From Candidatus Lindowbacteria bacterium RIFCSPLOWO2_12_FULL_62_27 (GTDB taxonomy: Bacteria; Lindowbacteria; 2-12-FULL-62-27): 64,000 nucleotides of DNA. The stretch covers positions 434,001-498,000 of the forward strand of contig MFPR01000004.1 of NCBI GenBank assembly GCA_001784175.1, given 5' to 3'. Position 1 is the first letter of the stretch; the number at the start of each line of letters is the position of its first letter. The position numbers and the translations under genes are program-made. Shown piece by piece: positions 23,924 through 61,847 of the stretch. The notes under the pieces are model-generated. The model had not been told where the DNA came from. It worked only from the letters and a program-made list of their open reading frames with translations, and searched no databases.

Positions 23924-25138
23924 TCAACCACCGGCGGCCACGAGCCAATTGAAATACTCCGGCTCATGGAAAAACCGGGCGGCTTCATCCGACGGCGCGG
24001 TTCCTTTCCGGTAAAGCTTCAGCCGTCGGAGTTCGATGGTCCGGTGGTACAAACGCCACGGGGTGCTGTAGAAGAATCTGCCGCCGACGATCTGCCGGCA
24101 CCACGGACCCAGCCTGTCATAGGAAATATCATGCTGAAAAAGCAGGCCGACATCACCTGTCTCCACGGTTCGCGGATGAATATCACCGTAGCCGAGCGCA
24201 ATCATTTCGGGCAGGCAGAACTTCTCGATCTGAATCCGCAGCTCCTCCGATAGATACTGTTTCCATTTTTCCCTGAATTCGCCCGAAATTCCCCCCGGCT
24301 TCGCAGGCCCGGCAACTCCGCCCTTCTCCTGATAGCTGGTATTCGGCGCTTTGAATTTCCCGTGCACCATCGACTCCTCGTAAGGCACGCCGAGAAAATC
24401 CGCCACGTTCTTCAAGATCTCCGCCGGTTGGCTGACGAGGGCTTCGTACCGAACGGTGATCACCCGCCCCTTGAGCTCGCTTTCGGCCGTTTGATATTTC
24501 CAGGAATAGTAAACCGATTTGCGCCAGTCACGGATATTGAAGAGAAGCGGATAAGGCGAATCCGACATGAAATTGGAACTCACGACCGACCGGGGATCGC
24601 GCAGAATATGGATGAATTTCATGCCGGGAAACGTTCTCGACATCGGCAGGAAAAGCTGCTCGCACCAGGCGTCTTTGAAGCCGGCGTAAACGCACCCGTT
24701 CTTTTCCGAACCCCGGTAAAGCAGATTCATAATCTCGAGGAAGAGTCCGTCAAAAGACCGGGACGCGCAGGATTTGACAGGCTCCCGAATCTCCGGGCAA
24801 AAATATCCGCCCCGCCCGGAGATCCGCTCCAGAATCTCCCCCTTCAAAAAGTCCGGCAGGTCGTGCCTGAGGTCCGTGCGATCGACAAACTCGCGGACGC
24901 GGGGACTTCCCATGAAATAAAAATGATCGATCGGATAGGCGGCCTCCTTGATCACGCCGTGAATCCGGTGGTAGGCGAAATGCAGGAATCCCCTGAAAAA
25001 TTCCGCCAGCGGGTCCGGCGCGCAAATCATCCGGGGGTGCTGATTCAAACATTCGGCGATGAGCGTCGTCCCGCTTCGCGCCACACCGCTGACCATCACA
25101 AATTTGGAATGTTCGTTGAGGCGCGGGAGGTCATTCAT
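23924..25138 (-). CDS. PAPS-dependent sulfotransferase
   Basis: A 404-residue sulfotransferase of the Sulfotransfer_3 type, transferring sulfate from PAPS. The 5'-phosphosulfate loop is FVMVSGVARSGTTLIAE (about 13-29) and the 3'-phosphate motif is ILRDPRSVVSSNF (about 178-190). The ATG at 25138 overlaps the end of the FemAB-like gene; a longer frame to 25375 would be antisense-like sequence over that gene. Its presence suggests the surface glycan carries sulfate. It is followed with no gap by the aldo/keto reductase. No PAPS-synthesis genes are visible in the window. Confidence 0.85.
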   Translation of the reverse strand: MNDLPRLNEHSKFVMVSGVARSGTTLIAECLNQHPRMICAPDPLAEFFRGFLHFAYHRIHGVIKEAAYPIDHFYFMGSPRVREFVDRTDLRHDLPDFLKGEILERISGRGGYFCPEIREPVKSCASRSFDGLFLEIMNLLYRGSEKNGCVYAGFKDAWCEQLFLPMSRTFPGMKFIHILRDPRSVVSSNFMSDSPYPLLFNIRDWRKSVYYSWKYQTAESELKGRVITVRYEALVSQPAEILKNVADFLGVPYEESMVHGKFKAPNTSYQEKGGVAGPAKPGGISGEFREKWKQYLSEELRIQIEKFCLPEMIALGYGDIHPRTVETGDVGLLFQHDISYDRLGPWCRQIVGGRFFYSTPWRLYHRTIELRRLKLYRKGTAPSDEAARFFHEPEYFNWLVAAGG

Positions 25139-26138
25139 TAAACTGTTTCGTCCCCCGGAACCACGCCACCCGCCGGCCGCCGAACCCCGATTTGAACAGG
25201 GCGATGCTGGTTGCCTTCGCATCGCCGGTTTCTCCGGGAACCGGCTGCCAGCCCATGTCAAGAAACCGGTCCTCTCGGGAGCGGGCGTGTCGGAGGGCGG
25301 CCCAGATTCCATAATGCCCGTGGCCGCCATCCGGACCGGCGTCCGGATGTGTGGCGGACGAGGCGTAGTAAACATGTCCGTTGAATCTGTAAAACAGGGC
25401 GGCGACCGCCCATGCGCCTTCCGGATTCGTGACGGCGACGAGAAACGCCTGATCGGCGCGGATCATCTCATACATTGTCTCAAACGTGTTCCTCGGACGC
25501 GTGACGCGGCCGGCCGCGAGATGATGCAGGATCCGGTATTTTTCGCACGCCTCGTAATTCCAGTTCTCTCGATCGATGACGGTGACCGGGAATTTCTTCA
25601 TGGCCCGCGTGATCAGCGGCCTGTAACTCTTTCGTACCGCGCGCCAGAGCGTGTCTTCATCCTCCCGCAGATCAATCACGCGGCTGGCGGAGGACTCGTC
25701 CCGGAATCCGTGCATCTTCAGAAAATTGAACAGGGTTCTTCCCGAGACCAGCTCCACCGGTTCAATGGCGACCCTGTACCGTTCCGCCTGTTTTCTCGCC
25801 GCGAGATCCGACACTTCCGAGAAGATTTCCTCCTCCACCCGGGAACGCGCATTCGATGCCTCCGGCAGCGCGAAAATCGGCGCGGAGAGATAGTCGCCGC
25901 CGTAGGAGAATTCCAGTCCGCCATTGTTCCGGCAGAGATATACCGGCACGTAAGCAGCGAGTTCCCCGGAATCCAAATACGCAAGGAACGACAAATCCTC
26001 AACCCAGCGATTCCCCAGATAGAGATGGTCATACTCCCGGACCAGGGAACTGTAGAACGCGGTGGAACCCGGAATTTTCGCGATTTCCTTTTCGGCGAGG
26101 ACCGGAAACTGTTTGTCGTGTGCGAATATGAATTTCAT
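25131..26138 (-). CDS. FemAB/GNAT-like acyl- or aminoacyltransferase
   Basis: A 335-residue protein resembling the FemAB-like tandem-GNAT superfamily (Acetyltransf_6 type). Visible features are LSFLAYLDSGELAAYVPVYL, ARYR-like RAVRKSYRPLITRAMKK, FLVAVTNPEGAWAVAALFY and the typical C-terminal HGHYGIWAALRHAR ... DMGWQPVPGE and FKSGFGG. Family members transfer amino acids from aminoacyl-tRNA or acyl groups to amines or sugars; some are only linked to exopolysaccharide loci. The start at 26138 overlaps the FkbM gene's stop by 4 bases, and the stop overlaps the sulfotransferase start. A role in N-acylating the glycan is inference. Confidence 0.72.
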   Translation of the reverse strand: MKFIFAHDKQFPVLAEKEIAKIPGSTAFYSSLVREYDHLYLGNRWVEDLSFLAYLDSGELAAYVPVYLCRNNGGLEFSYGGDYLSAPIFALPEASNARSRVEEEIFSEVSDLAARKQAERYRVAIEPVELVSGRTLFNFLKMHGFRDESSASRVIDLREDEDTLWRAVRKSYRPLITRAMKKFPVTVIDRENWNYEACEKYRILHHLAAGRVTRPRNTFETMYEMIRADQAFLVAVTNPEGAWAVAALFYRFNGHVYYASSATHPDAGPDGGHGHYGIWAALRHARSREDRFLDMGWQPVPGETGDAKATSIALFKSGFGGRRVAWFRGTKQFNE

Positions 26139-27274: not shown

Positions 27275-27304
27275 AGCCGATCTCAAAGGGGGAGCGTGCA
27301 TCAC

Positions 27305-34134: not shown

Positions 34135-35018
34135 GAATCCTGGTCACCGGCGCCGGAGGCTATTTGGGAAGCGCCTGCGTGGGCCATCTTGCCGGGCGCC
34201 ATGAAGTGACGGCGGGCGGGCACAGTTCACCGGAACGGCCGGACGCCGTCATTCACATGGCGTTTCGATTTCCTAAAGACAACTCCGCGCGGGCCGAACT
34301 TGAAAACCAAACCGCGTTGCGCGCCATGATTGATTTCTGCATGGCCCGGAATGTTTCGCGATTCATTTTTCCGTCCACGTATGCGGTGTATCCCTGCAGC
34401 GAGCGGACCGCGGTGGAATCGGACGCCCTGTTTCCAGAATCCGAATACGCCCGCGGAAAGGGGACGGCGGAAAGGATGCTGCAGGAGTCCGGCCTTCCCC
34501 ATGTGATCCTTCGTCTGACGCACGTCTATGGCCGGGGCACCGGCGTCGGCGACGAGGGCGGCGTCATCCTGCAGTGGCTGGATCGGGCCATGCATGGAAA
34601 GGACATCGAAGTGATCGACGGAGAAACCATCGAGCGGGACTATATCCACCTTCGTGACGTCCTGGCGGCCGTCGAGGCGTGCCTTGAAAGAGAGCCGGCC
34701 ATGGGACGCGTCTACAACATCGGAAGCGGCGCCGGCGTGACGCTTCTGGATCTCGCGCGACAGATCGCGCGGATCGCCGGCGGGGAAACCGGCCGGGACG
34801 TTTCGGTGCGGAATCGCCGGAGCGCAACCCCCGTGATCTGGCGGCGGCGCGTGGACCTCCGGCGGGCGGAGGAGGAATTGGGCTTTTATCCGCGGGTCAA
34901 CCTCGTGGAAGGCTTGAAAGAGATGGCGGCGGCGCGCACGACGGGACTGCCGGATCAGCGCCTCCGGCGCCCCAAGTGCCGGCGTCTCCGACGCCGGCCG
35001 GAGGCGGCCGCAAGATGA
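34131..35018 (+). CDS. NAD-dependent epimerase/dehydratase with repeat-derived C-terminus
   Basis: A 295-residue extended SDR, short for the class. Motifs are RILVTGAGGYLGSACVGHL, AVIHMAFRF, RFIFPSTYAVYPCSE, EYARGKGTAE (Tyr-x3-Lys), THVYGRG and RVYNIGSGAGVTLLDLARQIA. It probably converts an NDP-hexose (4-epimerase, dehydratase or reductase). The final 20 or so residues, a run of Arg, Pro and Lys, are encoded by copy B of the double-hairpin repeat (34951-35002) read in another frame, so the natural C-terminus has been replaced. ATGA overlaps at both ends couple it to the WbqC and aminotransferase genes. Confidence 0.78.
   Translation: MRILVTGAGGYLGSACVGHLAGRHEVTAGGHSSPERPDAVIHMAFRFPKDNSARAELENQTALRAMIDFCMARNVSRFIFPSTYAVYPCSERTAVESDALFPESEYARGKGTAERMLQESGLPHVILRLTHVYGRGTGVGDEGGVILQWLDRAMHGKDIEVIDGETIERDYIHLRDVLAAVEACLEREPAMGRVYNIGSGAGVTLLDLARQIARIAGGETGRDVSVRNRRSATPVIWRRRVDLRRAEEELGFYPRVNLVEGLKEMAAARTTGLPDQRLRRPKCRRLRRRPEAAAR
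34951..35002 (+). repeat. Double-hairpin repeat, copy B (gene 3' end)
   Basis: Hairpin 1 has a GCGCC stem strand (34959-34963), loop TCC and GGCGC (34967-34971), changed on both strands compared with copy A (GCCTC/GAGGC). The CCCAAGT spacer and hairpin 2 (GCCGGCGTC, TCC, GACGCCGGC; 34979-34999) match copy A. It begins CGGATCAG and ends CGGCCGGA, just before the epimerase stop and the aminotransferase start. Confidence 0.85.
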
Positions 35019-36157
35019 GGATCAAGGGCGCGCATCCTGCATTTTCCGAGGGTGAAATAGCGTCGATCACCGGCGAGATCGCCGAGGTCCTTCGCTCGGG
35101 CCGGCTGATTTTGGGAAGCCGGACAGAGCGGTTTGAAGCAGCCTTCGCCGAATACGTTGGAACCCGGCATGCCATCGCCGTCAATTCCGCAACGACCGCG
35201 CTCCAGATCACCCTCCAGTATCTCGATGTCAGGGACCGCGAGGTCGTCCTTCCGACCAACACATTTCTGGCCACGGCCAACGCCGTCCTGTACGCGGGGG
35301 GACGACCGGTTTTCGGCGACATCGAACCGCAGTCTCTCGCCCTGTGCCCGGACAGCCTGATCCGGAACATCACGCCGCGCACAAAAGGCGTCATCCTCGT
35401 CCATCTGGCCGGATTCATCAGCCCGCATCTGGAAGACATTCAACAGATATGCCGGGACCGGAGGTTGTTTTTGATTGAAGACGCGTCGCATGCTCATGGG
35501 GCCCTTTACAAGGGTTCAAAGGCGGGGTCGCTGTCGTTCGCCGGATGTTTTTCCTTTTATCCCACCAAAGTCATGACGGCGGCGCTGGGCGGCATGATCA
35601 CGACAAACGATGCGGCCTTGGACCGCTACGCCAGAAGCCTTCGGCATCACGGCCAGACCGACCGGACGCTCGACGTGCTGACCCGGTTCGGGAACGACTG
35701 GCTTCTCGACGAAGTGCGATCCGTGATCGGCTATCATCAGTTGAGGGGGCTTGAGAATGCAGTTCTCAGGCGGAATGCCCTGGCGCGCCGGTACACGGAA
35801 CGATTGAAGGACGTGAAGGGCATTCAAGTATTTGAAGTTGCGCCTCACATCAGGCACGCCTACTATAAATTCCCGGTTTCCGTCGATCCGCCCATTTCCC
35901 GTGACCATCTGATGCGGCGGTTGAACGAGGAACATGACGTTGAGACCGGTGTACTCTATGATCCGCCCTGTCATCTCCAGCCCATTGTCATGGAAACGTT
36001 CGGCACGAAACCGGGTGACTGCCCGGTTTCCGAATCGATCCTCCGGCGTGAACTCTGCCTGCCGATGCATGTGAGCCTCACGGAAGAGGACGTCGATCGC
36101 GTGGTGGGAATCCTGTCCGCCGAAATCGATCTCCGGATGGACATGGCGGTCGCCTGA
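35015..36157 (+). CDS. DegT/DnrJ/EryC1 (PseC-type) PLP sugar aminotransferase
   Basis: A 380-residue aminotransferase placing an amino group on a keto-deoxy NDP-sugar. Evidence is GRLILGSRTERFEAAFAEYVG, HAIAVNSATTALQITL, LPTNTFLATANAVLYAGGRPVF, LIEDASHAHGA and the PLP lysine in FSFYPTKVMTAALGGM (Lys185). It lies immediately before NeuB and near a WecD-type acetyltransferase, which fits the PseC step (4-amination of UDP-4-keto-6-deoxy sugar made by PseB, encoded at 43988-45046). The ATG (35015) overlaps the epimerase TGA; a frame opening at 34976 lies inside the repeat and is rejected. A LegC- or PglE-type role is an alternative. Confidence 0.82.
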   Translation: MRIKGAHPAFSEGEIASITGEIAEVLRSGRLILGSRTERFEAAFAEYVGTRHAIAVNSATTALQITLQYLDVRDREVVLPTNTFLATANAVLYAGGRPVFGDIEPQSLALCPDSLIRNITPRTKGVILVHLAGFISPHLEDIQQICRDRRLFLIEDASHAHGALYKGSKAGSLSFAGCFSFYPTKVMTAALGGMITTNDAALDRYARSLRHHGQTDRTLDVLTRFGNDWLLDEVRSVIGYHQLRGLENAVLRRNALARRYTERLKDVKGIQVFEVAPHIRHAYYKFPVSVDPPISRDHLMRRLNEEHDVETGVLYDPPCHLQPIVMETFGTKPGDCPVSESILRRELCLPMHVSLTEEDVDRVVGILSAEIDLRMDMAVA

Positions 36158-37212
36158 TGGGCGGCGTCAGAATCTCGGATCGTGCGATCGGGCCGGGGCA
36201 TCCCTGTTTTGTGGTAGCCGAGATCGGCACGAACCACGATCGGAACATTCAAACGGCCCGGACCCTCATCGATGCGGCGGCGACGGCCGGCGTCGACGCG
36301 GTCAAATTTCAATTTTATCACGGCGAAGATGTCGTCACGCCCCGGGCCACCGCCGGCGAGTACGGCCTTCACAGGATGTATCCCGGCCTTCACAGAATGG
36401 TGGACATCTACAATGGCCGGCTCCGGACCCCCCGGGCGTGGTTTCCCGAACTGAGCGACCGTGTGAGAAGGCTGGGAATGATTCCGTTCGCCGCGCCGCA
36501 CTGCATCGACTGCGCGCAGTTCGCAGTGTCGCTGGGCATGCCGGCCTTCAAAGTCGCGTCCGTTGAAATCACGAACCTGCAGTTTTTGGAGGCGCTGGCC
36601 GCATTTCGAAAACCGATCATCCTCTCCACCGGCTTCGCCACCTCACGCGAGATCGCCGAGGCCGTTCGCGCGGTTCGACGCGCCGGCCACTCGAAATTGA
36701 TTCTCCTGCACTGCGTTTCCGACTATCCGACTCGGCCGCAAGACGTCAATTTGCAATTCATCCAAACGCTCCGCCGGCGATTCGGCGCACCCGTCGGATT
36801 TTCCGACCATACGACAGGCTTGGCCGTGTCGTTCGCGGCCGTCGCGCTGGGGGCGAGCGTGATCGAACGCCACGTGACACTGGATCGAAACCGGAGCGGC
36901 CCCGATCATCCGTTTGCCCTCGAGCCGCAGATGCTGGTGGAACTCGTCCGGGGCATCCGCGACATTCATCGGGCGATGGGGAAGGCCGCCAAGAAACTCA
37001 CCGCATCCGAGAGGGACAAAAGAAAACTCTTCTTCCGCAGCATCGTCGCGTCGCGGCACATTCCCAGGGGCCAGAAGATCCGCGCCGCCGACCTTGATCT
37101 CAAGCGGCCGGGCACGGGTCTGCCTCCGAAAATGCTGCGCACCGTCATCGGCCGCAGAGTGAGGAGAGACATCCGGCAATATGATCTCATTGAAACCGGT
37201 ACGCTCGTCTGA
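36157..37212 (+). CDS. neuB: NeuB-family nonulosonic acid synthase (sialic/pseudaminic acid synthase)
   Basis: A 351-residue PEP-condensing synthase making a nine-carbon sugar acid from an N-acyl hexosamine. The TIM barrel begins FVVAEIGTNHDRNIQTARTLID, with AVKFQFYH, KVASVEITNLQFLEALA, ILSTGFAT, LHCVSDYPTRPQDVNLQFI, GFSDHTTGL and IERHVTLDR. The C-terminal SAF antifreeze-like domain has FFRSIVASRHIPRGQKIRAADLDLKRPG. Length and domain order are standard. It shares 1 base with the aminotransferase stop. With PseB, PseC-type, PseH-type and PseG homologues in the window, a pseudaminic-acid-like product (PseI role) is favoured over neuraminic or legionaminic acid. Confidence 0.9.
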   Translation: MGGVRISDRAIGPGHPCFVVAEIGTNHDRNIQTARTLIDAAATAGVDAVKFQFYHGEDVVTPRATAGEYGLHRMYPGLHRMVDIYNGRLRTPRAWFPELSDRVRRLGMIPFAAPHCIDCAQFAVSLGMPAFKVASVEITNLQFLEALAAFRKPIILSTGFATSREIAEAVRAVRRAGHSKLILLHCVSDYPTRPQDVNLQFIQTLRRRFGAPVGFSDHTTGLAVSFAAVALGASVIERHVTLDRNRSGPDHPFALEPQMLVELVRGIRDIHRAMGKAAKKLTASERDKRKLFFRSIVASRHIPRGQKIRAADLDLKRPGTGLPPKMLRTVIGRRVRRDIRQYDLIETGTLV

Positions 37213-37215
37213 ACC

Positions 37216-38211
37216 ATGAACCTGCCGACCATGCCGGCCGCTCGTGAATTCCAGAGACTGACGCCAGACCGCGCCGAGGCCCTGGTGCCTTTCATCAAGG
37301 CCCATCGAAGCATTTATGACGGACAATTCAACCCGGATGTCCCGCCCGACGTGCTGGGTGACTATTTCATTCATGACCTCCGGCAGAAATTCTCGGAGGG
37401 CGTGTGGGCGGGGCTGATGCATGAACCGGCAGGGGGGGGCTTCGCGGCAGCGGTATTTCATCACAGCGCATGGGACACCAATTTTTTCGGATTTCGGATG
37501 GATCGTCTCGATTATCTGTTTGGCTCACATGAAAACGCCATGGATGCTGTTCTTTGCCGATACGCCGGCCTTTCGGAGAAGGAGGGCGTCCGCCACATCT
37601 CTGCGCGGGTAAACATGTCTGACCGTCGGACCGCGAGCGTTCTGCGCCAAAACGGCTTTGCTGAGGTGTGCGTAAAGTCCCTCTGGCGCCACTCGCTGGC
37701 GGATCCAGCGGCGGTTCAGGTGCCATCACCCCACATTCGAGCATTTTCTCCGCAAGACGGCGACGATGTCCGAGTGCTGGCGGCGACGCTGGCCGGGGCC
37801 GGCAGATTCTCCATGGACGGACGCTTTGATCCGAAGCGCGTCCGGGAGATGTATGAGCAGTGGGCGGTCCACCTGTGCGAAACGGCGCCGGCGCAGGTTT
37901 TGGTGGCGCGCGTGCGGGGTGCCACGGCCGGATTTTTGGTGTTTACGGTTGGCGTGCCCTTGTACGGTGCGCCGGACGTTGCCGATTTGAAGCCGGGCGT
38001 TGTCACGCACGTGGCGGTTGATCCGTCCCTGAGGGGGCGTGGGTTCGGCCGGGCGCTGATTGTCGCAGGATTGAAGCGCATGTGCGAGCTGGGCGCCCGC
38101 GCGGCGTACGCGGCAACCGCGGCGGGAAACGCAGCCGGCGCCGCCGCTTTTCAATCGGCGGGATTCCGCCCGGTAACATCGCATTGGGATTTCCATCGAT
38201 GGCTCGACTGA
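37216..38211 (+). CDS. WecD/PseH-like amino-sugar N-acetyltransferase (tandem GNAT)
   Basis: A 331-residue protein with two GNAT-like halves. The N-terminal half has the WecD/RffC-type WDTNFFGFRMDRLDY and RTASVLRQNGF; the C-terminal half has the full acetyl-CoA loop HVAVDPSLRGRGFGRALIVAG and AGAAAFQSAGFRPV. WecD-type enzymes acetylate 4-amino-4,6-dideoxy NDP-sugars, which is the PseH step of the pseudaminic acid pathway. ATG 37216 is 3 bases after the NeuB stop. The stop overlaps the PIG-L start by 13 bases. The acetylated position is inferred from context only. Confidence 0.8.
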   Translation: MNLPTMPAAREFQRLTPDRAEALVPFIKAHRSIYDGQFNPDVPPDVLGDYFIHDLRQKFSEGVWAGLMHEPAGGGFAAAVFHHSAWDTNFFGFRMDRLDYLFGSHENAMDAVLCRYAGLSEKEGVRHISARVNMSDRRTASVLRQNGFAEVCVKSLWRHSLADPAAVQVPSPHIRAFSPQDGDDVRVLAATLAGAGRFSMDGRFDPKRVREMYEQWAVHLCETAPAQVLVARVRGATAGFLVFTVGVPLYGAPDVADLKPGVVTHVAVDPSLRGRGFGRALIVAGLKRMCELGARAAYAATAAGNAAGAAAFQSAGFRPVTSHWDFHRWLD

Positions 38212-52683: not shown

Positions 52684-53286
52684 TCACGCGCTTTCGCGAA
52701 TGCGCTCGGCCAGTCGATACGTGATGAGATGGTGCAGGACAACGTGGAACGATTCGACGTGGGGCGTGGTGTTCCAGGGAACGACAATGCAGGCGTCGGT
52801 CATCTGCTTCATGGCGCCGCCGTCAAATCCGCTGAATCCCAGCGCCACACCTCCGTGGTCCGTGGCGTATCCAAGGCCCTTCAGGAGATTCTGGGACCAC
52901 CGCCCCGCCTTGTCCTTGCCCGATCCTCCGTGGACGCTGAGGGCCAGCGCCACGTCGCCGGGCTCAAAAAAGTTCTTCATCTGTTCCGTGTAGACATTCT
53001 CCCAGCCGTCGTCGTTCGTCAGGGCGCTGACCCATGGCACGCTGTCGACGAGGCTCATGACTTTGATGCGTTTCTTTCCCTCGATGGCCGTGCACTTGTT
53101 GAGGTCCGCGGCGAAATGGGACGCGGTGCCGGCTGATCCGCCGTTGCCGAAAATGAAGATCCGCCGGCCTTTTTCCCAGGCGCCGTAGAGATACTCGATC
53201 ACGCGGTCGATGTCGGCCCGGTTTATCTGGCGGGCGATTTCGACGATGCCATCCAAGTAGGTGTTGATGTAAGCCTCATTTCTCAT
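52684..53286 (-). CDS. gmhA: Phosphoheptose isomerase (GmhA/SIS family)
   Basis: A 200-residue SIS-domain isomerase converting sedoheptulose 7-phosphate to glycero-manno-heptose 7-phosphate. Evidence is RIFIFGNGGSAGTASHFAADLNK (sugar-phosphate binding), ALTNDDGWENVYTEQM, DVALALSVHGGSGK, where the usual STSGNS is SVHGGS, and C-terminal VESFHVVLHHLI with the metal or acid-base histidines. Start ATG 53286 has GAGGGG 6 bases upstream. Together with HddA and HddC (56500-58339) it supplies the GDP-heptose route; the phosphatase GmhB is not in the window. Divergent from the carrier-protein ligase gene. Confidence 0.85.
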   Translation of the reverse strand: MRNEAYINTYLDGIVEIARQINRADIDRVIEYLYGAWEKGRRIFIFGNGGSAGTASHFAADLNKCTAIEGKKRIKVMSLVDSVPWVSALTNDDGWENVYTEQMKNFFEPGDVALALSVHGGSGKDKAGRWSQNLLKGLGYATDHGGVALGFSGFDGGAMKQMTDACIVVPWNTTPHVESFHVVLHHLITYRLAERIRESA

Positions 53287-53384: not shown

Positions 53385-54566
53385 ATGATGGAATGGATTT
53401 TTGCCTGTTCTCCGCCTCTTTCGGCTCCAGTTCAAAAAGCGGCGCGCTACCGGCTGCATTTTTGCTCGCCCGAGATCATCCGATTTCAGGTTTCTCCGGA
53501 TGCCATACGTCTCACGCTGTCGACCGACGACGAGTCCGTCTGGCATGAGGTGTCCCGCAAGGTTGAGCGGGTGGTATCCGGCGTGCGGGACGGATTTGTC
53601 CCGCCGGAGGAGCGTTTGTACATGGAGCGGCGGCATCCCTCGCCGGCGTGGTCCGGCGCCGGTGTGAACCTCGAACAGGCCGGCCTGATCAAGAAAGCCG
53701 GCGAAGGATTTTACGTGACCGGCCCCTTGATCGCCGGGCTGGTGGAGCGGCTGGATCGAATTCTCCTGGATATGGCGGATGTCTTCGGCGCGCGAGCCGT
53801 CGGAACGCCGGCCCTGATCGCACCCGAAGTTCTGTCCCGCGTGGACTATTTCCGCGCCTTTCCCCACTCTCTCACGTTCGCGTGTCATCTCCCGCGGGAC
53901 GTGGACGAGATCGAGGCCTTTTCGAAACAACCTTTCGAGGCGGACGGATCGCTGGCGCCGGCCGCCTCCGGCGCGGGCGCAGCCGTTCTGTCTCCCGCCG
54001 TCTGTTTTCATCTCTACCATTTTCTCGAGGGCACAAGCCTGGGTCAGGCCCTCGAATCCTACACTGTCCGCGGGCGGTGTTTCCGATATGAGGCCGGCGC
54101 GCTCGCGGGGCTCGAACGGCTGTGGGACTTCACCATGCGCGAAATCGTCTTTGTCGGAGAGCAAGCCGATGTCATGGACGCCCGCAAGCGGTCGATGGAG
54201 TGGGTCACGGACCTCGCGGACCGCCTGGGTCTGGTATGCCGGATCGAGAGCGCGGCCGATCCCTTTTTTGTGGGCGAGTTCAAACAGCGCACGGTCTTTC
54301 AGGCCGCGTTTGATTTGAAATATGAGTGGCGCGCCGACCTCGATCCCGCCGCCGCGGACGATCTGGCCGTCGGATCGTTCAACGTTCATCAGACGCATTT
54401 CGGCAAGGCCTTCCGGATCGCCGCACCGTCCGGCGAGATGGCCTGGACGGGCTGCACGGCATTCGGGCTCGAACGGCTGGCGCTTGCGGTCCTGCGGCAG
54501 CACGGTCTTTCTCCGGACGGCTGGCCGGAGATTCTGAAATCTGATCTTTCCGTGTCAATCGAATGA
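53385..54566 (+). CDS. Amino acid:[carrier protein] ligase (truncated seryl-tRNA-synthetase-like)
   Basis: A 393-residue class II aminoacyl-tRNA-synthetase-like enzyme of the aa:CP ligase type, which activates a small amino acid (Gly/Ala/Ser in studied members) and loads it onto a carrier protein's phosphopantetheine instead of tRNA. Motif 2 is RCFRYEAGALAGLERLWDF (about 231-249) and motif 3 is AFGLERLALAVL (about 359-370). A PAVCFHLYHFLEG segment with a cysteine that may bind zinc is present. There is no tRNA-binding coiled coil at the N-terminus. ATG 53385 or 53388. The next gene, overlapping by 4 bases, is the expected carrier protein, which strongly supports the assignment. Confidence 0.85.
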   Translation: MMEWIFACSPPLSAPVQKAARYRLHFCSPEIIRFQVSPDAIRLTLSTDDESVWHEVSRKVERVVSGVRDGFVPPEERLYMERRHPSPAWSGAGVNLEQAGLIKKAGEGFYVTGPLIAGLVERLDRILLDMADVFGARAVGTPALIAPEVLSRVDYFRAFPHSLTFACHLPRDVDEIEAFSKQPFEADGSLAPAASGAGAAVLSPAVCFHLYHFLEGTSLGQALESYTVRGRCFRYEAGALAGLERLWDFTMREIVFVGEQADVMDARKRSMEWVTDLADRLGLVCRIESAADPFFVGEFKQRTVFQAAFDLKYEWRADLDPAAADDLAVGSFNVHQTHFGKAFRIAAPSGEMAWTGCTAFGLERLALAVLRQHGLSPDGWPEILKSDLSVSIE

Positions 54567-54799
54567 CCGGCGCGGCCGACACTGTCAAGTCCTTCATCGC
54601 GCGCGCGCTCAAAATCGACGAGTCGGCCGTCCACGAGTCGCTGCAGCTCGGCGCCATCCCCCAGTGGGATTCGTTCGGACACATCAATCTGATGATGGCG
54701 CTTGAAGCCGAATACGGCGTGCCGATCACCGAGCAGACGGTGCTCCAGCACGTTTCCTACGCCGCCATCGCCGCGAGCCTCGCCGCGCTAAAACGATGA
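54563..54799 (+). CDS. Acyl carrier protein-like (aminoacyl carrier protein)
   Basis: A 78-residue phosphopantetheine carrier protein. The attachment serine is Ser37 in QWDSFGHINLMMALE; the fold is predicted as four short helices, with acidic residues before the site. The WDSFGH form is typical of specialised carriers rather than the fatty-acid ACP (DSLD). ATGA overlaps on both sides tie it to the upstream amino acid ligase and the downstream formyltransferase, so it is very probably the ligase's partner and holds an aminoacyl thioester. No phosphopantetheinyl transferase is in the window. Confidence 0.88.
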   Translation: MTGAADTVKSFIARALKIDESAVHESLQLGAIPQWDSFGHINLMMALEAEYGVPITEQTVLQHVSYAAIAASLAALKR

Positions 54800-55743
54800 C
54801 CCGGTTTCTTCTGGTCGGCAATGGCCGGCCGCTGGAGGAAGTGTGCCAGGCGATCCCGCGACTGGGCGGGGAAGTCGCCGGCGTGTACGCCAATCCGGAA
54901 TCTGCACGGCGGCTGCAAGCCATGGGAATCGATCCGCAGCAGTCTTCGATTCTGCGCGCGCCGGAAGCCGCGGAAGTCATACGCGCGCAAAGGATCGACT
55001 GGCTGCTCAATGTCCAATCGCAAGTTGTTTTTCCGGCGGCCGTGATTCGCGCGCCGGCGCTCGGCGCGATCAATTTCCATCCGGGACCCCTGCCCGAAGG
55101 CGCCGGCCTCACGGCGCATGAGTGGGCCGTCATTCTGGGCGAATCGGCCTTCGCGGCGACCCTCCATTATATGACGCCTGATCTGGACGCCGGCCCCATC
55201 ATCGTACGCAGGGATTTCGAAATTTCCGACACCGACACCGGCCTCACGCTTCTCGCGCACGCCTGGCGCGTCGGCACCGAGCTTTTGTGCGATCTCCTCC
55301 CGTCGTTGATCGCCGGGCAGCGGCCGTCGGCTTATGCTCAGGACAAATCGAAGTTCCGCTACTTTCCCGGCAAGCCTCCGCACGGCGGGCGGATCGACGT
55401 GAGTTGGCCCGCGGATCGGATTTTGAATTTTGTCCGCGCGCTCCAGTATTATCCCCTGCAGTCGCCCTCCGGACCGCCCCGGCTTGTCGTAAACGGCGAG
55501 CCATTCGCTGTGTTGCAGGCCGAACGCGGCGAATCCTCATCCGGGCATTCTCCGCCAGGTAAAATCACTGAAGTTTCGGAGAGGGGCGTTCAGATTGCGG
55601 TGAGCGGCCACGAAAGCGTCTGGATCATTCGTCTCCTGCGCGAAGGATCTCCCGTCGCCGCCGGGCCATTCTTTCAGCGGCACGGCATCTCCGCCGGCGC
55701 CCTCTGCGACACGGAACTTCCGGCCTCCTCCGGGCGGCCGTGA
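54796..55743 (+). CDS. Formyltransferase-family protein (Fmt/sugar N-formyltransferase-like)
   Basis: A 315-residue 10-formyltetrahydrofolate-dependent formyltransferase-type protein. The catalytic triad is intact: Asn93 and His95 in GAINFHPGPLP and Asp131 in MTPDLDAGPII. The N-terminal half has a Rossmann-like start TRFLLVGNG. The C-terminal domain (about 205-315, RIDVSWPADRILNFVRAL) fits the Fmt-like OB-fold region. It is not the housekeeping Fmt: it lacks tRNA context and lies in an operon with an aminoacyl carrier system. It could formylate the carrier-bound amino acid or an amino sugar; both are inference. The stop overlaps the next GTG start (GTGA). Confidence 0.82.
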   Translation: MTRFLLVGNGRPLEEVCQAIPRLGGEVAGVYANPESARRLQAMGIDPQQSSILRAPEAAEVIRAQRIDWLLNVQSQVVFPAAVIRAPALGAINFHPGPLPEGAGLTAHEWAVILGESAFAATLHYMTPDLDAGPIIVRRDFEISDTDTGLTLLAHAWRVGTELLCDLLPSLIAGQRPSAYAQDKSKFRYFPGKPPHGGRIDVSWPADRILNFVRALQYYPLQSPSGPPRLVVNGEPFAVLQAERGESSSGHSPPGKITEVSERGVQIAVSGHESVWIIRLLREGSPVAAGPFFQRHGISAGALCDTELPASSGRP

Positions 55744-56498
55744 GCCAAGGCGCTGTCGGCATCGAAACGGTTGACTGGGAAGCTGTCCACCGGCTGTCCT
55801 TCGTTGACGAGCCCGGTTGCTGGACCAGCGGCTGTCAGAGCTATTGCTGCACGCACAAATCGGACCTTCTGGCATTCTCGATCCTCACGGGCGGCGCCGG
55901 CATGATTTTTTTCGAAGCCGAATATGACTATCTCCGGGCATCGGGCCGCCTGCAAAAGGGGTTTGAGTCCCACGCCAAACGCATGTCCTATGAACTGGCG
56001 CCGGGCCTCCATCTAAGATTCGTCCTTTCCAAATGCGAATTGAACGGCATCTGCACGATTCGGGAGTCCCGGCCGCTCTGTTGCAAGCTCTATCCGTTTT
56101 TGCCGCGCGTCGACCCGGCGACATCCGCACTGACCGGTTTCGTGTCCGGCACGGTCTTCGACGCCTTCTGGCCGGTCCTCGGCGTCCCGCATCCCTGCAC
56201 GCTCGCACGCGAGAAGGCCGACGCGGTGCAAGCACGGATGAAACCGTCGCTCACGCGCCTGCTCGGCCATCCATACTTCTTGTTTCATTTCCGTGCGGTG
56301 GAAATTCTTCTCGACCGCATTTCCGAAGGGTTGGACGCGCTCAAACGAGCCCACGCGGGTATCGACGCCCGTGCGCTGTCCAGAAAGTGGGAACTCCTCT
56401 ATCTGACCGGAAAGGCCTTTGACGGCGGGCGCCTGCGTGCCGATCTCCTCCACGCCTATTCAACGGTTGCGGCGCGCTTCCCGGGATTCGAGATTTAA
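55740..56498 (+). CDS. Cysteine-cluster protein (YkgJ-like) of unknown function
   Basis: A 252-residue protein with two cysteine-rich segments: CWTSGCQSYCC (Cys27, 32, 36, 37) and CELNGICTIRESRPLCCKLYPF (Cys99, 105, 114, 115; the RPLCCxxYPF form is characteristic). These resemble the YkgJ/Fe-or-Zn-chelating domain, of uncertain chemistry. The rest is helical with no signal peptide. GTG 55740 overlaps the formyltransferase stop, so it is translationally coupled to the aminoacyl-carrier cassette and may be its fourth component, for example a metal-dependent transferase or oxygenase. The next gene starts 1 base after its stop. Confidence 0.6.
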   Translation: MSQGAVGIETVDWEAVHRLSFVDEPGCWTSGCQSYCCTHKSDLLAFSILTGGAGMIFFEAEYDYLRASGRLQKGFESHAKRMSYELAPGLHLRFVLSKCELNGICTIRESRPLCCKLYPFLPRVDPATSALTGFVSGTVFDAFWPVLGVPHPCTLAREKADAVQARMKPSLTRLLGHPYFLFHFRAVEILLDRISEGLDALKRAHAGIDARALSRKWELLYLTGKAFDGGRLRADLLHAYSTVAARFPGFEI

Positions 56499-56499
56499 A

Positions 56500-57246
56500 A
56501 TGAATGCGGCCGGCCGCGTCCGCGACGCCGTCATTCTCGCCGGCGGACAGGGAACGCGGATTCGGCATCTGATTCCGAACATTCCAAAACCGATGGTCGA
56601 AACCGCTGGCCGGCCGTTCGTTGAATCGGTGGTGCGGCTCCTCAGGGATCAGGGAATCGAGCGCATCGTCTTCAGCACGGGACATCGCGCCGAAGTTCTT
56701 GAGACTTTTTTCGGCGACGGGCGCACATGGGACATGCGCATCGTTTATCTCAGGGACCCCGTCCCGCTCGGAACCGGCGGCGCCGTCCGGCATGCGCTCC
56801 GGGAGGTACGGTCGGATCGGTTTCTTGTTCTCAATGGAGATTCCTATTGTCGGTTTGATGTCGATTCCATGGTATCCGTCCATGAGAAAACGCGCGCCGG
56901 CGTGACGATCTGGCTGGCACGGTCGGACCGCATCGCCGAATCAGGCCGCGTCGACATTCGCGAGGACGGAACCGTGACGGGCTTTCTGGAAAAACCTGCC
57001 GACCCGCAAGCCGGCTTCGTCAACGCGGGCGTGTATCTGTTCGACCGGCAGGCCGCCGAAACGATCCCGGACGGAAAAACCGTCTCGCTCGAACACGACG
57101 TATTTCCGAATCTGGTTGGCCGCGGGCTCAGTGCAGTGCCCGGCCCGCACCCGCTTCTGGACATCGGCACCGAATCGGGCCTGCAGGCCGCGGCAGCGTT
57201 TTTTCAGCATGAATTTCCGTTGAAATCATGCACTGAAACCTGCTAA
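56500..57246 (+). CDS. hddC: Heptose-1-phosphate guanylyltransferase-like nucleotidyltransferase
   Basis: A 248-residue sugar-1-phosphate nucleotidyltransferase similar to HddC and mannose-1-phosphate guanylyltransferases: DAVILAGGQGTRIRHL (NTP loop), PKPMVETAGRPFVESVVRLL, FSTGHRAEV, PLGTGGAVRHAL, FLVLNGDSYCRFD (metal site) and SGRVDIREDGTVTGFLEKP. Adjacent to the HddA-type kinase, it would form GDP-D-glycero-alpha-D-manno-heptose. ATG 56500 lies 1 base after the stop of the Cys-cluster gene. Substrate assignment rests on the neighbour; a different hexose-1-phosphate is possible. Confidence 0.8.
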   Translation: MNAAGRVRDAVILAGGQGTRIRHLIPNIPKPMVETAGRPFVESVVRLLRDQGIERIVFSTGHRAEVLETFFGDGRTWDMRIVYLRDPVPLGTGGAVRHALREVRSDRFLVLNGDSYCRFDVDSMVSVHEKTRAGVTIWLARSDRIAESGRVDIREDGTVTGFLEKPADPQAGFVNAGVYLFDRQAAETIPDGKTVSLEHDVFPNLVGRGLSAVPGPHPLLDIGTESGLQAAAAFFQHEFPLKSCTETC

Positions 57247-57283: not shown

Positions 57284-58339
57284 GTGATCATTTCGAAGAC
57301 GCCGTATCGCATATCTTTCTTCGGCGGCGGCACCGATTATCCGGCGTGGTACCGCAAGGAAGAGGGGGCGGTGCTGTCGACGACCATCGACAAGTACTGC
57401 CACATCACCTGCCGGCACCTGCCGCCGTTTTTCAACCACAAACACCATGTGGTGTGGTCCCATAACGAAACGGTTTCCTCCATCTCCGAGATTCTTCACC
57501 CCGCTGTCCGCGAGGGACTGCGATACATGGGGTTTGACGACTCGGTTGGACTTGAAATCTCGCACCAGGGGGATCTGCCGGCGCGCACGGGCATCGGATC
57601 GAGTTCGGCCTTCACGGTCGGGCTTATCCTCGCGCTGTCGGCGTTGAGGGGCCGGACAATGGACAAGCGGGAACTCGCGCTCCGCGCCATCGAGCTTGAG
57701 CAGGACGTCATCAAAGAATCCGTCGGGTCACAGGATCAGGCGGCGGCGGCCTTCGGTGGGTTCAACCACATCCGGTTTTCCAAAGACGGGGTATTCGCCG
57801 TCGATCCCACGGACGTTCCGCAGCACCGAGTGGAGCAACTGGAATCCCGGCTCATGCTGCTGTTCACGGGCACCAGCCGCCTTTCGACGGACGTCGCGTC
57901 TTTGATCGTTCAAAATCTCAAGAACAGGACCGCAACGCTCCGCCGCATGCGCGATCTCGTCGACCGCGCGGTAGCCCTGCTCAAGGGCAAAACATCCCTC
58001 GATGAGTTCGGAGAACTTCTTCATGAAGGCTGGCAGCTTAAACGAAATCTCGCCGGGCCGGTGACCAATCCGACCATCGACGCCGTATACCAGACAGCTC
58101 GCGAGGCGGGCGCGCTGGGCGGGAAACTCCTCGGCGCGGGCGCGGCGGGATTCATGGTGTTTTACGTCCCGCCCGACCGGCAGGACCCCGTGCGGCAGGC
58201 GCTCCCCAATTATCTCTGGGTTCCGTTTGCTTTCGAGTCCGACGGCGCGAAGATCATACACAACAGCTCCTTCCCGGAAATCCCCCCCGAGGTCGCGGCG
58301 CCCGAGGCCGCCGGCGCGGCCGTCCGCGCAGCCGGCTGA
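57284..58339 (+). CDS. hddA: D-glycero-alpha-D-manno-heptose 7-phosphate kinase (GHMP family)
   Basis: A 351-residue GHMP kinase phosphorylating the anomeric position of heptose 7-phosphate. Evidence is the N-terminal SKTPYRISFFGGGTDYPAWY typical of HddA, the ATP loop DLPARTGIGSSSAFTVGL (97-114), SVGSQDQAAAAFGGFN, LFTGTSRLSTDVA and KLLGAGAAGFMVFY. GTG 57284 has AGAGGAGGGG about 10 bases upstream, the strongest ribosome-binding site in the window. A weak TTGAAA-18-TAACGT pair (57220-57249) upstream might provide an internal promoter. GmhA at 52684 makes its substrate. Confidence 0.88.
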   Translation: MIISKTPYRISFFGGGTDYPAWYRKEEGAVLSTTIDKYCHITCRHLPPFFNHKHHVVWSHNETVSSISEILHPAVREGLRYMGFDDSVGLEISHQGDLPARTGIGSSSAFTVGLILALSALRGRTMDKRELALRAIELEQDVIKESVGSQDQAAAAFGGFNHIRFSKDGVFAVDPTDVPQHRVEQLESRLMLLFTGTSRLSTDVASLIVQNLKNRTATLRRMRDLVDRAVALLKGKTSLDEFGELLHEGWQLKRNLAGPVTNPTIDAVYQTAREAGALGGKLLGAGAAGFMVFYVPPDRQDPVRQALPNYLWVPFAFESDGAKIIHNSSFPEIPPEVAAPEAAGAAVRAAG

Positions 58340-58342
58340 GGC

Positions 58343-58867
58343 GTGGAGGTCACCCGCACCAAACTCGACGGCGTCCTGCGGATCCGGCCGCCGACCTGCT
58401 TCAAGGATTTTCGCGGGGAATACGTCGAACTCTACAACGAAAAAGTCTATCGCGAAGCTGGGATCACTGTGTCATTCATCCAGGACGACATCTCGGTTTC
58501 CGGCAGAAACGTCCTGCGCGGGATTCACGGCGACCACAAAACATGGAAACTCGTCTCGTGCCTTTACGGAGAGTTTTTCATGGCGGTCGTCGACTGCCGC
58601 GACGGATCGGCCGGATTCGGCAAATGGGAATCCTTCACCCTCTCGGAACATAACCGGCTTCAGGTCCTGGTCCCGCCCTCCTTCGGCCTCGCGCACCTCG
58701 TGCTGAGCGACCGGGCGATTTTTCATTACAAGCAGTCAACCTACTACGACCGCGCGTCCCAGTTCACCTATCGGTGGAACGATCCGCGCTTCGCCATTCC
58801 ATGGCCAGTCCAGAACCCCATCCTGTCCGAACGCGACCAGATGGGCGGCAGCCGATCGATCTCCTGA
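58343..58867 (+). CDS. RmlC-like NDP-sugar 3,5-epimerase (cupin)
   Basis: A 174-residue cupin of the dTDP-4-dehydrorhamnose 3,5-epimerase family: CFKDFRGEYVELYNEKVYREAG, FIQDDISVSGRNVLRGIHGDHKTWKL (catalytic His), ALYGEFFMAVVDCR-like CLYGEFFMAVVDCRDGS, and VPPSFGLAHLVLSDRAIFHYK. No RmlA, B or D is near, while GDP-heptose genes directly precede it (3-base gap), so a heptose epimerase such as those in 6-deoxyheptose pathways is as likely as rhamnose synthesis. Start GTG 58343. The following 121 bases contain no gene I can support. Confidence 0.8.
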   Translation: MEVTRTKLDGVLRIRPPTCFKDFRGEYVELYNEKVYREAGITVSFIQDDISVSGRNVLRGIHGDHKTWKLVSCLYGEFFMAVVDCRDGSAGFGKWESFTLSEHNRLQVLVPPSFGLAHLVLSDRAIFHYKQSTYYDRASQFTYRWNDPRFAIPWPVQNPILSERDQMGGSRSIS

Positions 58868-58988: not shown

Positions 58989-60035
58989 CTATTCTTCGGT
59001 AACAGAAAGATCCATCAACGTCTGTGCCGCGCGATGCGCGCCCAACCCGTCCACCAGCTCACGGCCACGCGCCGACATGCCGGACCGGCGCCGGGGGTCT
59101 GTCAGAAGGTCTGTGACCAGGGGGGCGATCGTTTCCGGAATCGCGCCGCTCTGGGAGGCGAACCCCGCCAGACACGCGCACCCGTGCCGGACCAGGGCCG
59201 ACGCGTTCGGCGCCTGATTCGGCGCCAGCGCCAGGATCGCCATCGGCACGCCCAGGCAGCACAGTTCCCAGCAGGTCGATCCTGCCGCATTGACGGACAC
59301 ATCGGCGGCGGCCATGAGGTCCGCCATGTTCTCGGCGTTTCTTATGATGCGGATTTCGTGTTTCGAATCGGCGACCGCGCGATCAAGCCCGGCGGTCGCG
59401 GCCCCTTCACCGCCGAGGACGCACTGCACAACGAAAGAACGCGGCGCTTGATTCAGCGCAACAAGGACTTCGGCACAAGTGTCAGCCGTGGCGCCCCCGC
59501 CGAATGTCACAAGCACCTGCCGGTCGTTCGCGCTGAACTTTCGTGTCTGTGACTGGCGAATCCTGGAGAACTCCGGCCGCAGGAGCGCGTAGGCCGGCCC
59601 ACGTAAAACGCGGCATTCCGGCGACACCCGGTAGGACATATCCACCGCGTCCGGATTCTGATTCAGCACCCAGTTCGCCGCGCCCAGATCCCGGTCGGCC
59701 AGATCGTCGATGACGGCCACTTGAAAACCGGCTGCGCGTAATTGCCGAAAATCGGCGGGGGTCGCGCCGTAGTGGTCCACCACCACGCAGCGGGCGCCCA
59801 CGGCCATGGCCCGGTCTACCGTGAAAGCCGTGTCCAGCGCGCCTGCGACGCGCTCCACCGCAAACCCCGCCTGCTCGACCACGCGAAGCGGCGTGTCCGC
59901 GATCGGACGCATGACGAAAACGGGTTCGCCGCCGAGATCGCGCAGCGCAAGGGCCAGCGCCACACACCGGCGCACATGGCCCATGCCGATCTCGGGCGAC
60001 CCGTCGCATCGAAACAGAAAGGGAATCCGGCGCAT
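58989..60035 (-). CDS. pseG: PseG-like UDP-sugar hydrolase/transferase
   Basis: A 348-residue GT-B-like protein matching PseG, which releases 2,4-diacetamido-2,4,6-trideoxy-L-altrose from UDP before the NeuB/PseI condensation. Evidence is LFRCDGSPEIGMGHVRRCVALA with the catalytic His20, CVVVDHYGATPADFRQL, VIDDLADRDL, LVTFGGGATAD, and VNAAGSTCWELCCLGVPMAILALAPNQ, the UDP-binding part. Start ATG 60035; a TATAGA -10 ends 8 bases upstream. It stands alone, separated from neuB and pseB by many kilobases, so the pathway genes are dispersed in the locus. Confidence 0.85.
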   Translation of the reverse strand: MRRIPFLFRCDGSPEIGMGHVRRCVALALALRDLGGEPVFVMRPIADTPLRVVEQAGFAVERVAGALDTAFTVDRAMAVGARCVVVDHYGATPADFRQLRAAGFQVAVIDDLADRDLGAANWVLNQNPDAVDMSYRVSPECRVLRGPAYALLRPEFSRIRQSQTRKFSANDRQVLVTFGGGATADTCAEVLVALNQAPRSFVVQCVLGGEGAATAGLDRAVADSKHEIRIIRNAENMADLMAAADVSVNAAGSTCWELCCLGVPMAILALAPNQAPNASALVRHGCACLAGFASQSGAIPETIAPLVTDLLTDPRRRSGMSARGRELVDGLGAHRAAQTLMDLSVTEE

Positions 60036-60086: not shown

Positions 60087-61847
60087 ATGAATATCGTAAT
60101 TTGCAACGCGGTCGGCGTGGACCGGGAGGAGAATCACATCGTTCACTCGCCGAGCCGGTGGTCGTTCAGCATGAAAAATTATGACGACGTGTTCACCTAC
60201 TACCCGTGGGAACTCTGCTACACCTCTGCACTCCTGAAGCGCCGGACCGGCCACCGGGTCCGGTTCCTCGATCCGTGCATCGAGCGATGGGACGCGGAGG
60301 AAACGACGCGCCGGATACTCTCAGAAAAACCCGATCTCCTCCTCATGGAACCCTCGTCGCGGACTTTCCGCGAAGATTGGTCGGTCGCATCCGAGGTCAA
60401 AGCACGGCTCGGCACGAAAATCGCGCTGGCCGGCCAGCACGCCTCTGCCTTCCCCGAAACGCTCGCCCGCGAGGCCGACTACATCCTGATCGGCGAGTAC
60501 GAGGGGACCGTGCTGGACATTGTGTCCGGTGTCGACCGCAGCAAGATTTCCGGGCTGTACCCGAACCCGCGGCGGCCGGCGATGGACATCACGAGTCTGC
60601 CGTGGCCGGAGGACGAGGACGTGTCGCGGATCCGCTACGCGATTCCGGGCGAGCCGAACTGCGAGTACACGGAAATCCAGATGTACGCCAGCCGCGGTTG
60701 CCCCTTTCATTGCAACTATTGCGCCTCCGGCACCGTCTACTTCGCCGGCTGGCGGCCGCGCGAAGTCCGCAACGTCGCCGACGAAATCGAGGCGATGGGA
60801 CACAAGTATCCGGAATGCGAGGGATTTTTTCTTGACGAGGAGGAACACAATACCGGAAAAAAATTTGTTCTGCAACTCGCGGAAGAGATCCGGCGGCGCG
60901 GCCTGAACCGGTACAAGTTCGACGCGATGTGCGCCTATTTCAATCTCGACCGACCCGTGCTCGAAGCGATGGCCTCGGCCGGGTACTACAAGATCCGCGC
61001 GGGGGTCGAGACCCTGAGCGAGAAGACCGCGAGAGGCATGGACCTCGGCGCGAAATTCAATCCGGAAAAACTTGTACAGGCAATGACCCTCTGCCGGGAA
61101 CTCGGACTTCATTTCTATGGCACCTTTACCATCGGCGGCTGGGGATCGACCCGCGAGGAAGACCTGGTGACGGGACGGTTCATCGAGGACGCGGCCGCTC
61201 GGGGTCTTCTGCACGATCTCCAGATGTCCATCAACACGCCCCAGCCCGGAACGCCGTTTTATCAGAAAGCCAAATCGGCCGGGTATCTCCTGACTGAAGA
61301 CTGGCACAAATTCGACGGAGGCCGGCAGTCGGTCGTCAGTTACCCGGATTATCCGGCTGACGAAATCGTCCGGACCTATGACGACGTCCTGCGCCACTAC
61401 GACTGCGGCCTCTATCGTCGAAACCGCGACCTGTTCCGAAAACATTTCTCTGAATCCTTCGGCCAGGGTAACCGGCCCGGCGCGCGGAACATCCTCATCC
61501 TGCGATCGACCCGCATGTGGCACGTCCGGCTGGCAGCCGAATGCCTCCGGGACGCCGGCGCGGAGGTGTCGCTTCTGGGCCAGGACCGGATCCGGCCCGA
61601 TTTGAACGGCATGGCCGGCGTGCGGGACTTCTTCTCTTATGGCGACGGCCACATGCATCCGGAAGCCATCGACCGGGGCCTTTTGAACCACCTCCGGGAC
61701 CGCCGATTTGATCTCGTGCTGGCGCTGTACAGCAACACGGACGGCCGGTCGTTCGAGAATGTCCGAAAGGTTGCGCGGCGGATCGCCGACGGCGACGGAG
61801 CCGTCGCCGCAGTCGCTCATGACGGAACCGTCCTCCCCATCCGCTGA
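60087..61847 (+). CDS. B12-binding-type radical SAM protein with C-terminal X domain
   Basis: A 586-residue protein. Residues 1-150 resemble a cobalamin-binding fold (SALLKRRTGHRVRFLDPCIERW, IALAGQHASAFPE). The radical SAM cluster motif CPFHCNYC uses Cys205, 209 and 212, followed by GFFLDEEEHNTGKKFVLQLAEEI, IRAGVETLSEKTARGM and GTFTIGGWGSTREEDL. Residues 468-586 form the X domain (NILILRSTRMWHVRL, YSNTDGRSFENVRKVA) shared with 42353-42865 and 1728-4010. The overall class is like hopanoid- or sugar-modifying enzymes; the substrate is unknown. The end overlaps the following glycosyltransferase by 29 bases. Confidence 0.82.
   Translation: MNIVICNAVGVDREENHIVHSPSRWSFSMKNYDDVFTYYPWELCYTSALLKRRTGHRVRFLDPCIERWDAEETTRRILSEKPDLLLMEPSSRTFREDWSVASEVKARLGTKIALAGQHASAFPETLAREADYILIGEYEGTVLDIVSGVDRSKISGLYPNPRRPAMDITSLPWPEDEDVSRIRYAIPGEPNCEYTEIQMYASRGCPFHCNYCASGTVYFAGWRPREVRNVADEIEAMGHKYPECEGFFLDEEEHNTGKKFVLQLAEEIRRRGLNRYKFDAMCAYFNLDRPVLEAMASAGYYKIRAGVETLSEKTARGMDLGAKFNPEKLVQAMTLCRELGLHFYGTFTIGGWGSTREEDLVTGRFIEDAAARGLLHDLQMSINTPQPGTPFYQKAKSAGYLLTEDWHKFDGGRQSVVSYPDYPADEIVRTYDDVLRHYDCGLYRRNRDLFRKHFSESFGQGNRPGARNILILRSTRMWHVRLAAECLRDAGAEVSLLGQDRIRPDLNGMAGVRDFFSYGDGHMHPEAIDRGLLNHLRDRRFDLVLALYSNTDGRSFENVRKVARRIADGDGAVAAVAHDGTVLPIR

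Follow-up and report, generated by a model that had tools for sequence, protein, structure and literature searches.

A four-gene cassette and the relatives of its ligase

The DNA analysed here (the window) is a stretch of 64,000 nucleotides from Candidatus Lindowbacteria bacterium RIFCSPLOWO2_12_FULL_62_27 (GenBank assembly GCA_001784175.1, contig MFPR01000004.1, positions 434,001 to 498,000 of the forward strand). Its plus strand carries a compact run of four intact open reading frames (ORFs), encoding a predicted amino acid:carrier-protein (aa:CP) ligase (53385..54566, 393 aa), a carrier protein (54563..54799, 78 aa), a formyltransferase (54796..55743, 315 aa) and an eight-cysteine protein (55740..56498, 252 aa). 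Consecutive genes share start/stop overlaps (ATGA, ATGA and GTGA), and the ORF coordinates bear out this layout as given in a preliminary description of the same DNA. Homologues of each of the four proteins themselves adjoin ligase or carrier genes, so the four ORFs are not spurious. The preliminary description had named a lack of co-occurrence outside the window as one of two outcomes that would refute it, and on this half the result goes against it: the complete set was found nowhere else in anything searched (80 ligase loci, and 385 other genomes for the cysteine protein), and only its sub-combinations recur. Conservation of a four-gene operon is not supported by these searches.

The first gene product has a class-II synthetase fold and matches NF005479, the NCBIfam model of the Bll0957-type aa:CP ligases, at E 2.5e-46. 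Its score of 158 bits falls below the equivalog cut-off of 357 bits, so the enzyme represents a subfamily outside the named equivalog. The core aligns with Bll0957 (PDB 3mey) at E 2.5e-37 and about 34% identity, the class-II motifs are kept, and the zinc ligands C207, E253 and C357 are invariant across the window enzyme, Bll0957 and their relatives, in agreement with the tRNA-synthetase-like ligase named earlier. Both enzymes also have a dedicated carrier nearby. In contrast to Bll0957, the window ligase has a glycan setting, a formyltransferase partner and an N-terminal extension; residues 1 to ~96 find no counterpart in Bll0957 but are covered in alignments of relatives, and the extension therefore marks a subfamily, which is common in Anaerolineae. 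Adenylation of an amino acid and its loading onto the carrier are likely. The carrier itself exceeds the PF00550 cut-off (22.9 against 20.8 bits) and has the expected phosphopantetheine site at Ser37 within WDSFGH, as the preliminary description had read it. A phosphopantetheinyl transferase (PPTase) is present as well.

A scan of 84,980 species yielded 403 ligase relatives, of which the best 80 loci were kept; about 40 of these have an orthologue of the window's carrier beside the ligase. No relatives were found in viral contigs, and plasmids held only distant ones (<60% identity). Two relatives from Myxococcota-type genomes (L046:9905-11080 and L047:10001-11149) lie in loci where a matching carrier was not found. 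Gene neighbourhoods were profiled for 82 ligase loci, weighted towards the single class Anaerolineae, of which 43 have a matching carrier nearby and 39 do not. The carrier-bearing loci frequently encode an AAC(3)-type N-acyltransferase (35/43), a GNAT protein (34/43), PseF (31/43) and the nonulosonic-acid synthase NeuB (27/43), whereas the carrier-less loci rarely have AAC(3) (3/39) or GNAT (4/39) and never NeuB (0/39). A sugar locus recurs in Anaerolineae with genes for 3'-phosphoadenosine 5'-phosphosulfate (PAPS) synthesis, a PseF-type cytidylyltransferase, NeuB, a glycosyltransferase, a methyltransferase, the carrier, the ligase, a GNAT protein, an AAC(3)-type N-acyltransferase and a DUF4910 protein; additional genes were read as sulfotransferases by eye only. 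These loci share with the window the wider ligase clade, the carrier and the NeuB/PseF sugar setting. They differ in having a GNAT gene after the ligase and AAC(3) present, and neither the formyltransferase nor the cysteine protein was found in them.

Outside Anaerolineae, a proteobacterial metagenome-assembled genome (L004) has the order AAC(3) - carrier - ligase - formyltransferase. Its formyltransferase occupies the slot directly after the ligase that GNAT takes in Anaerolineae, which suggests that the capping step is perhaps interchangeable between acetyl and formyl. In the ligase tree, the window and L004 enzymes are sisters (98/95), a join that calls for caution as both are long branches; with L004 removed, the window ligase still joins the same wider group. 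Since the formyltransferases of the two loci are likewise sisters, ligase and formyltransferase seem, from these trees, to have travelled together as a pair. Another locus outside Anaerolineae (L003:1417-3435) has an AAC(3)-family acyltransferase and an aa:CP ligase fused in one 583-aa ORF, with a carrier gene preceding it; this fusion links loading with transfer.

The formyltransferase and the cysteine protein

The third gene encodes an enzyme that exceeds the cut-offs of PF00551 (55.3 against 26.1 bits) and of PF02911 for the Fmt-type C-terminal domain. The catalytic triad reported in the preliminary description (Asn-x-His...Asp; N93, H95 and D131) is invariant in the alignment, and the enzyme can be regarded as intact. 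With 75 bits against the TIGR00460 (Fmt) cut-off of 201.5, it falls outside the Fmt group in trees; profile scores and tree together rule out a Met-tRNA formyltransferase or PurN. By pairwise score it is intermediate between Fmt, ArnA and the sugar enzymes. It shares fold family and catalytic residues with the sugar N-formyltransferases (ArnA, the GDP-4-amino-4,6-dideoxymannose enzyme and PseJ), but differs from them in showing N.H..PLP..AG instead of N.H.S.LP.YRG and in grouping with carrier-associated enzymes.

This grouping was obtained in two trees. Among 19 formyltransferases, the window and L004 enzymes join first (97/92), followed by the N-terminal domain of a nonribosomal peptide synthetase (NRPS) and the stand-alone enzyme of locus L115 (99/94). 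Among 45, a branch (SH-aLRT 95) separates the six carrier-associated formyltransferases from the other enzymes, those of ArnA type (10 rows) and Fmt type (27 rows) among them, and none of 500 shuffles was as clustered (0/500). Other members of the clade are N-terminal domains of NRPS or belong to stand-alone gene sets, which combine an adenylating enzyme with a carrier and, in one case, with AAC(3). Four of the six members had served to build the search profile, and few sugar formyltransferases are included, so that the tree supports, without proving, a carrier-bound substrate.

The gene sets around these enzymes run parallel to the cassette. The genome that holds L004 also has a stand-alone operon (L115:462-4083) in the order adenylation (A) domain - formyltransferase - carrier - AAC(3), which on gene content parallels the L004 set with the same four functions and a non-homologous activating enzyme. 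An NRPS N-terminus (L114) is ordered formyltransferase - methyltransferase - A - carrier (peptidyl carrier protein, PCP) - ketosynthase (KS). Across 386 broadly sampled genomes, the best further matches came from another ORF of NRPS size and from L121, a stand-alone set in the order A domain - formyltransferase - carrier. The LgrA F-A-PCP-type initiation module of NRPS thus offers the closest known comparison: it shares formyltransferase, amino-acid activation and carrier with the cassette, the formyltransferase has its nearest relatives in an N-terminal module of this kind, and the F-A-T starters of formylating NRPS follow the same product logic as the proposed N-formyl-aminoacyl-S-carrier. 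The cassette differs in that its components are separate proteins, a synthetase-like ligase stands for the A domain, the Fmt-type C-terminal domain is kept and no elongation modules were found nearby.

The fourth protein had been described as YkgJ-like with eight cysteines. The eight cysteines stand (C27-X4-C32-X3-C36-C37 and four more conserved ones), whereas the family does not: the score against PF03692 (CxxCxxCC/YkgJ) is 12.5 bits (E 0.25) against a gathering cut-off of 23, leaving a resemblance of motif, and the spacing is closer to FliB. The CX4CX3CC spacing is indeed that of the FliB motif, which binds the [4Fe-4S] cluster required for lysine N-methylation dependent on S-adenosylmethionine (SAM) (PMC8598068), and FliB likewise has eight conserved cysteines. 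Unlike FliB, the flagellin lysine N-methylase, the window protein is shorter, lacks a significant profile match and has no flagellin context. A search of the host genome with the FliB model NF038110 reported only C27:36387-37469, not the cassette gene; the host genome has a second Cys-cluster protein, on C27 (L087:1432-2583, minus strand), that is FliB-like by this model, under the cut-off. A FliB-type structure model was too poor for comparison (pLDDT 44), and no solved structure in the PDB gave a meaningful sequence match.

The cysteine protein is rare. Among the 386 broadly sampled genomes it was detected in its own only, and in the phylum of a myxococcotal homologue (L055) it occurs in 2 of 329 genomes, L055's own included. 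Homologues adjoin carrier-loading genes in two Myxococcota genomes. In L055 the gene lies between carrier and ligase; in L092 (4067-8470) it accompanies an exosortase-A-type adenylating ligase (TIGR03098), a carrier, a pyridoxal phosphate (PLP) decarboxylase (TIGR03099) and a CysE/EpsC-like acyltransferase. A Chloroflexi match to the profile (L093), alone beside ATP-binding cassette (ABC) transporters, was left out of the context evidence. The company of two unrelated activating enzymes suggests that the substrate of the protein is the loaded carrier or the product derived from it. It could replace AAC(3) as the transferase, or it could be a FliB-like [4Fe-4S] N-methylase that methylates the aminoacyl group, be it before the formyl cap is added or afterwards, and both ideas are compatible with the other readings of the cassette. 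Such a role is consistent with its position beside carrier-loading genes in the window, L055 and L092, with the FliB-type motif, with the methyltransferase domain in the N-terminal NRPS module that has a related formyltransferase, and with the finding that the cysteine protein and AAC(3) were never seen together in one locus. Nevertheless, it must be considered unlikely, as there are just three carrier contexts, the spacing varies (CX3CX3CC in L055, CX3CX4CC in L092), NF038110 did not report the gene and fold comparison gave no useful match.

The surrounding surface-glycan locus

The same-strand run continues past the cysteine protein with a sugar-1-phosphate nucleotidyltransferase resembling HddC and GDP-mannose pyrophosphorylase (56500..57246, +), an HddA-like GHMP-family sugar kinase (57284..58339, +) and an RmlC-like sugar 3,5-epimerase (58343..58867, +). 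Upstream and divergent lies a GmhA-like SIS isomerase (52684..53286, -). The cassette therefore sits within what looks like a nucleotide-heptose set, a reading from genes that score below their equivalog cut-offs. The wider window reads as a surface-glycan locus: it encodes glycosyltransferases and a sulfotransferase besides proteins resembling PseC, NeuB/PseI, PseF and PseG. A PseC-like aminotransferase (34976..36157, +) would yield a free sugar amine and represents a candidate acceptor pathway. The locus also has a NeuB/PseI-type nonulosonic-acid synthase (36157..37212, +) and PseG of the nonulosonic-acid pathway (58989..60035, -; TIGR03590 over cut-off). A GNAT protein (37216..38211, +) is a candidate acyl transferase, and a FemAB-like protein (25131..26138, -; TIGR04421 at E 1e-19, under cut-off) a weak one.

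Additionally, the glycan locus contains a split E1 dehydrogenase-type pair (45088-47281, -) and a split transketolase pair (27296-29139, +), which may point to an uncommon chemistry of branched sugars or ketoses, as well as a B12-binding radical SAM protein (60087-61847, +) that passes no NCBIfam cut-off. The host lineage is sparsely sampled, and the ligase is missing from both of its relatives in the same family.

A proposed route to N-formyl-aminoacyl sugars

From the gene identities, active-site residues, recurring neighbourhoods and formyltransferase clade, all of which are read from sequence, we infer the reaction steps, the amino acid and the acceptor. On balance, the cassette is best read, with moderate confidence, as a stand-alone 'activate, carry, formyl-cap' module making an N-formyl-aminoacyl-carrier for transfer to an amino sugar. 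The ligase would adenylate a small amino acid, most likely Gly or Ala by analogy with Bll0957-type enzymes, and load it onto the dedicated carrier through the phosphopantetheine group. Next, the formyltransferase would use 10-formyl-tetrahydrofolate (10-formyl-THF) to formylate the alpha-amine, giving N-formyl-aminoacyl-S-carrier; that formylation occurs on the carrier is probable. The capped residue would be passed to a sugar amine of the surface-glycan locus, either of a pseudaminic-type or of a heptose-derived amino sugar, a step that we favour slightly. In the relatives, this last step would likely be carried out by the AAC(3)-type acyltransferase. A different enzyme would be needed here, as a search of the host genome for the AAC(3) family (PF02522) found no member; no more than candidates are the cysteine protein, the FemAB-like protein (gene at 25131) and the GNAT protein (gene at 37216). 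The cysteine protein, possibly a [4Fe-4S] enzyme, may have the loaded carrier or the product formed on it as its substrate. Such a product class is plausible because N-acylated aminoacyl groups on amino sugars are known, including N-acetyl-glycyl, N-acetyl-alanyl and hydroxybutyryl-alanyl groups and N-acetyl-alanyl legionaminic acid (PMC7371886, PMC10609480).

The functional interpretation in the preliminary description is thus partly supported. Its glycan setting holds up. Its N-formyl-aminoacyl-carrier gains backing from the formyltransferase phylogeny and the parallel gene sets, and its sugar destination from the fact that most ligase relatives with a linked carrier lie in nonulosonic-acid loci. 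The proposal of FemAB-like or GNAT proteins as acceptor enzymes stays unproven, since the relatives have an AAC(3)-type enzyme that the host genome lacks. Several points weigh against the formyl-cap module. As AAC(3) was not found in the host, its transfer step has only candidate enzymes there; such absences are soft because the assembly is 94% complete. The formyltransferase adjoins this ligase type in only two loci, the window and L004. The clade test in the tree of 45 is thin for sugar enzymes, so that a sugar may still be the substrate, and the GDP-perosamine-type formyltransferase is the sister of the carrier-associated clade. Furthermore, the cysteine protein compares poorly with FliB-type proteins (hhalign probability 10%), and a fold search with Foldseek and VIA-align gave no useful PDB match, which is not evidence of a new fold.

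The main rival explanation holds that two separate modifications are encoded, with the formyltransferase acting directly on a sugar amine, as for 5-N-formyl-legionaminic acid or GDP-perosamine, and, for the same glycan, the ligase and carrier making an aminoacyl donor without a formyl group. N-formylation of sugars is well known in such loci, e.g. in 5-N-formyl-legionaminic acid (PMC6137143), and the best PDB matches of the formyltransferase include ArnA and the GDP-4-amino-4,6-dideoxymannose enzyme, the latter being the sister of the carrier clade. However, the formyltransferase gene overlaps the carrier gene, and its clade comprises enzymes fused to or adjoining carriers and amino-acid-activating enzymes; the two-modification scheme therefore appears rather improbable. 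Another reading, in which the cassette is merely lodged near glycan genes and supplies a formyl-aminoacyl starter for a natural product, a small peptide-like metabolite that is secreted or modified, is very unlikely: ligase relatives in Actinobacteria and Paenibacillus do adjoin large multi-member clusters resembling NRPS or polyketide synthase (PKS) loci (by look, not domain content) and the nearest formyltransferase domains belong to an NRPS, but no NRPS/PKS genes were found in the scanned parts of the window, sugar-nucleotide genes follow in the same run as the cassette, and nonulosonic-acid loci are where the nearest ligase clade is found.

According to a 2022 review (PMC9437257), it is unknown what biological role the amino acids have that aa:CP ligases place on carriers, and a literature search for a link between these ligases and nonulosonic acids found nothing. 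Aminoacylated and N-acyl-aminoacylated amino sugars are known from bacterial surfaces (PMC7371886, PMC10609480); no description of the enzymes behind their activation was found in the literature searched. The recurring sets of carrier, ligase, capping enzyme and AAC(3) in sugar loci offer a concrete and testable answer to the role of aa:CP ligases, and this arrangement, rather than the four-gene set, is the more general result. It may tentatively be extended to a general, undescribed route of glycan decoration, in which a synthetase-like ligase or an A domain would load a carrier, a formyltransferase or GNAT would cap the residue, an acyltransferase such as AAC(3) would transfer it to an amino sugar, nonulosonic or other, and the cysteine protein, as an Fe-S enzyme, would be an additional one that acts on the carrier. 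Within such a route, the formyltransferase would tie the starter chemistry of NRPS to the decoration of surface sugars.

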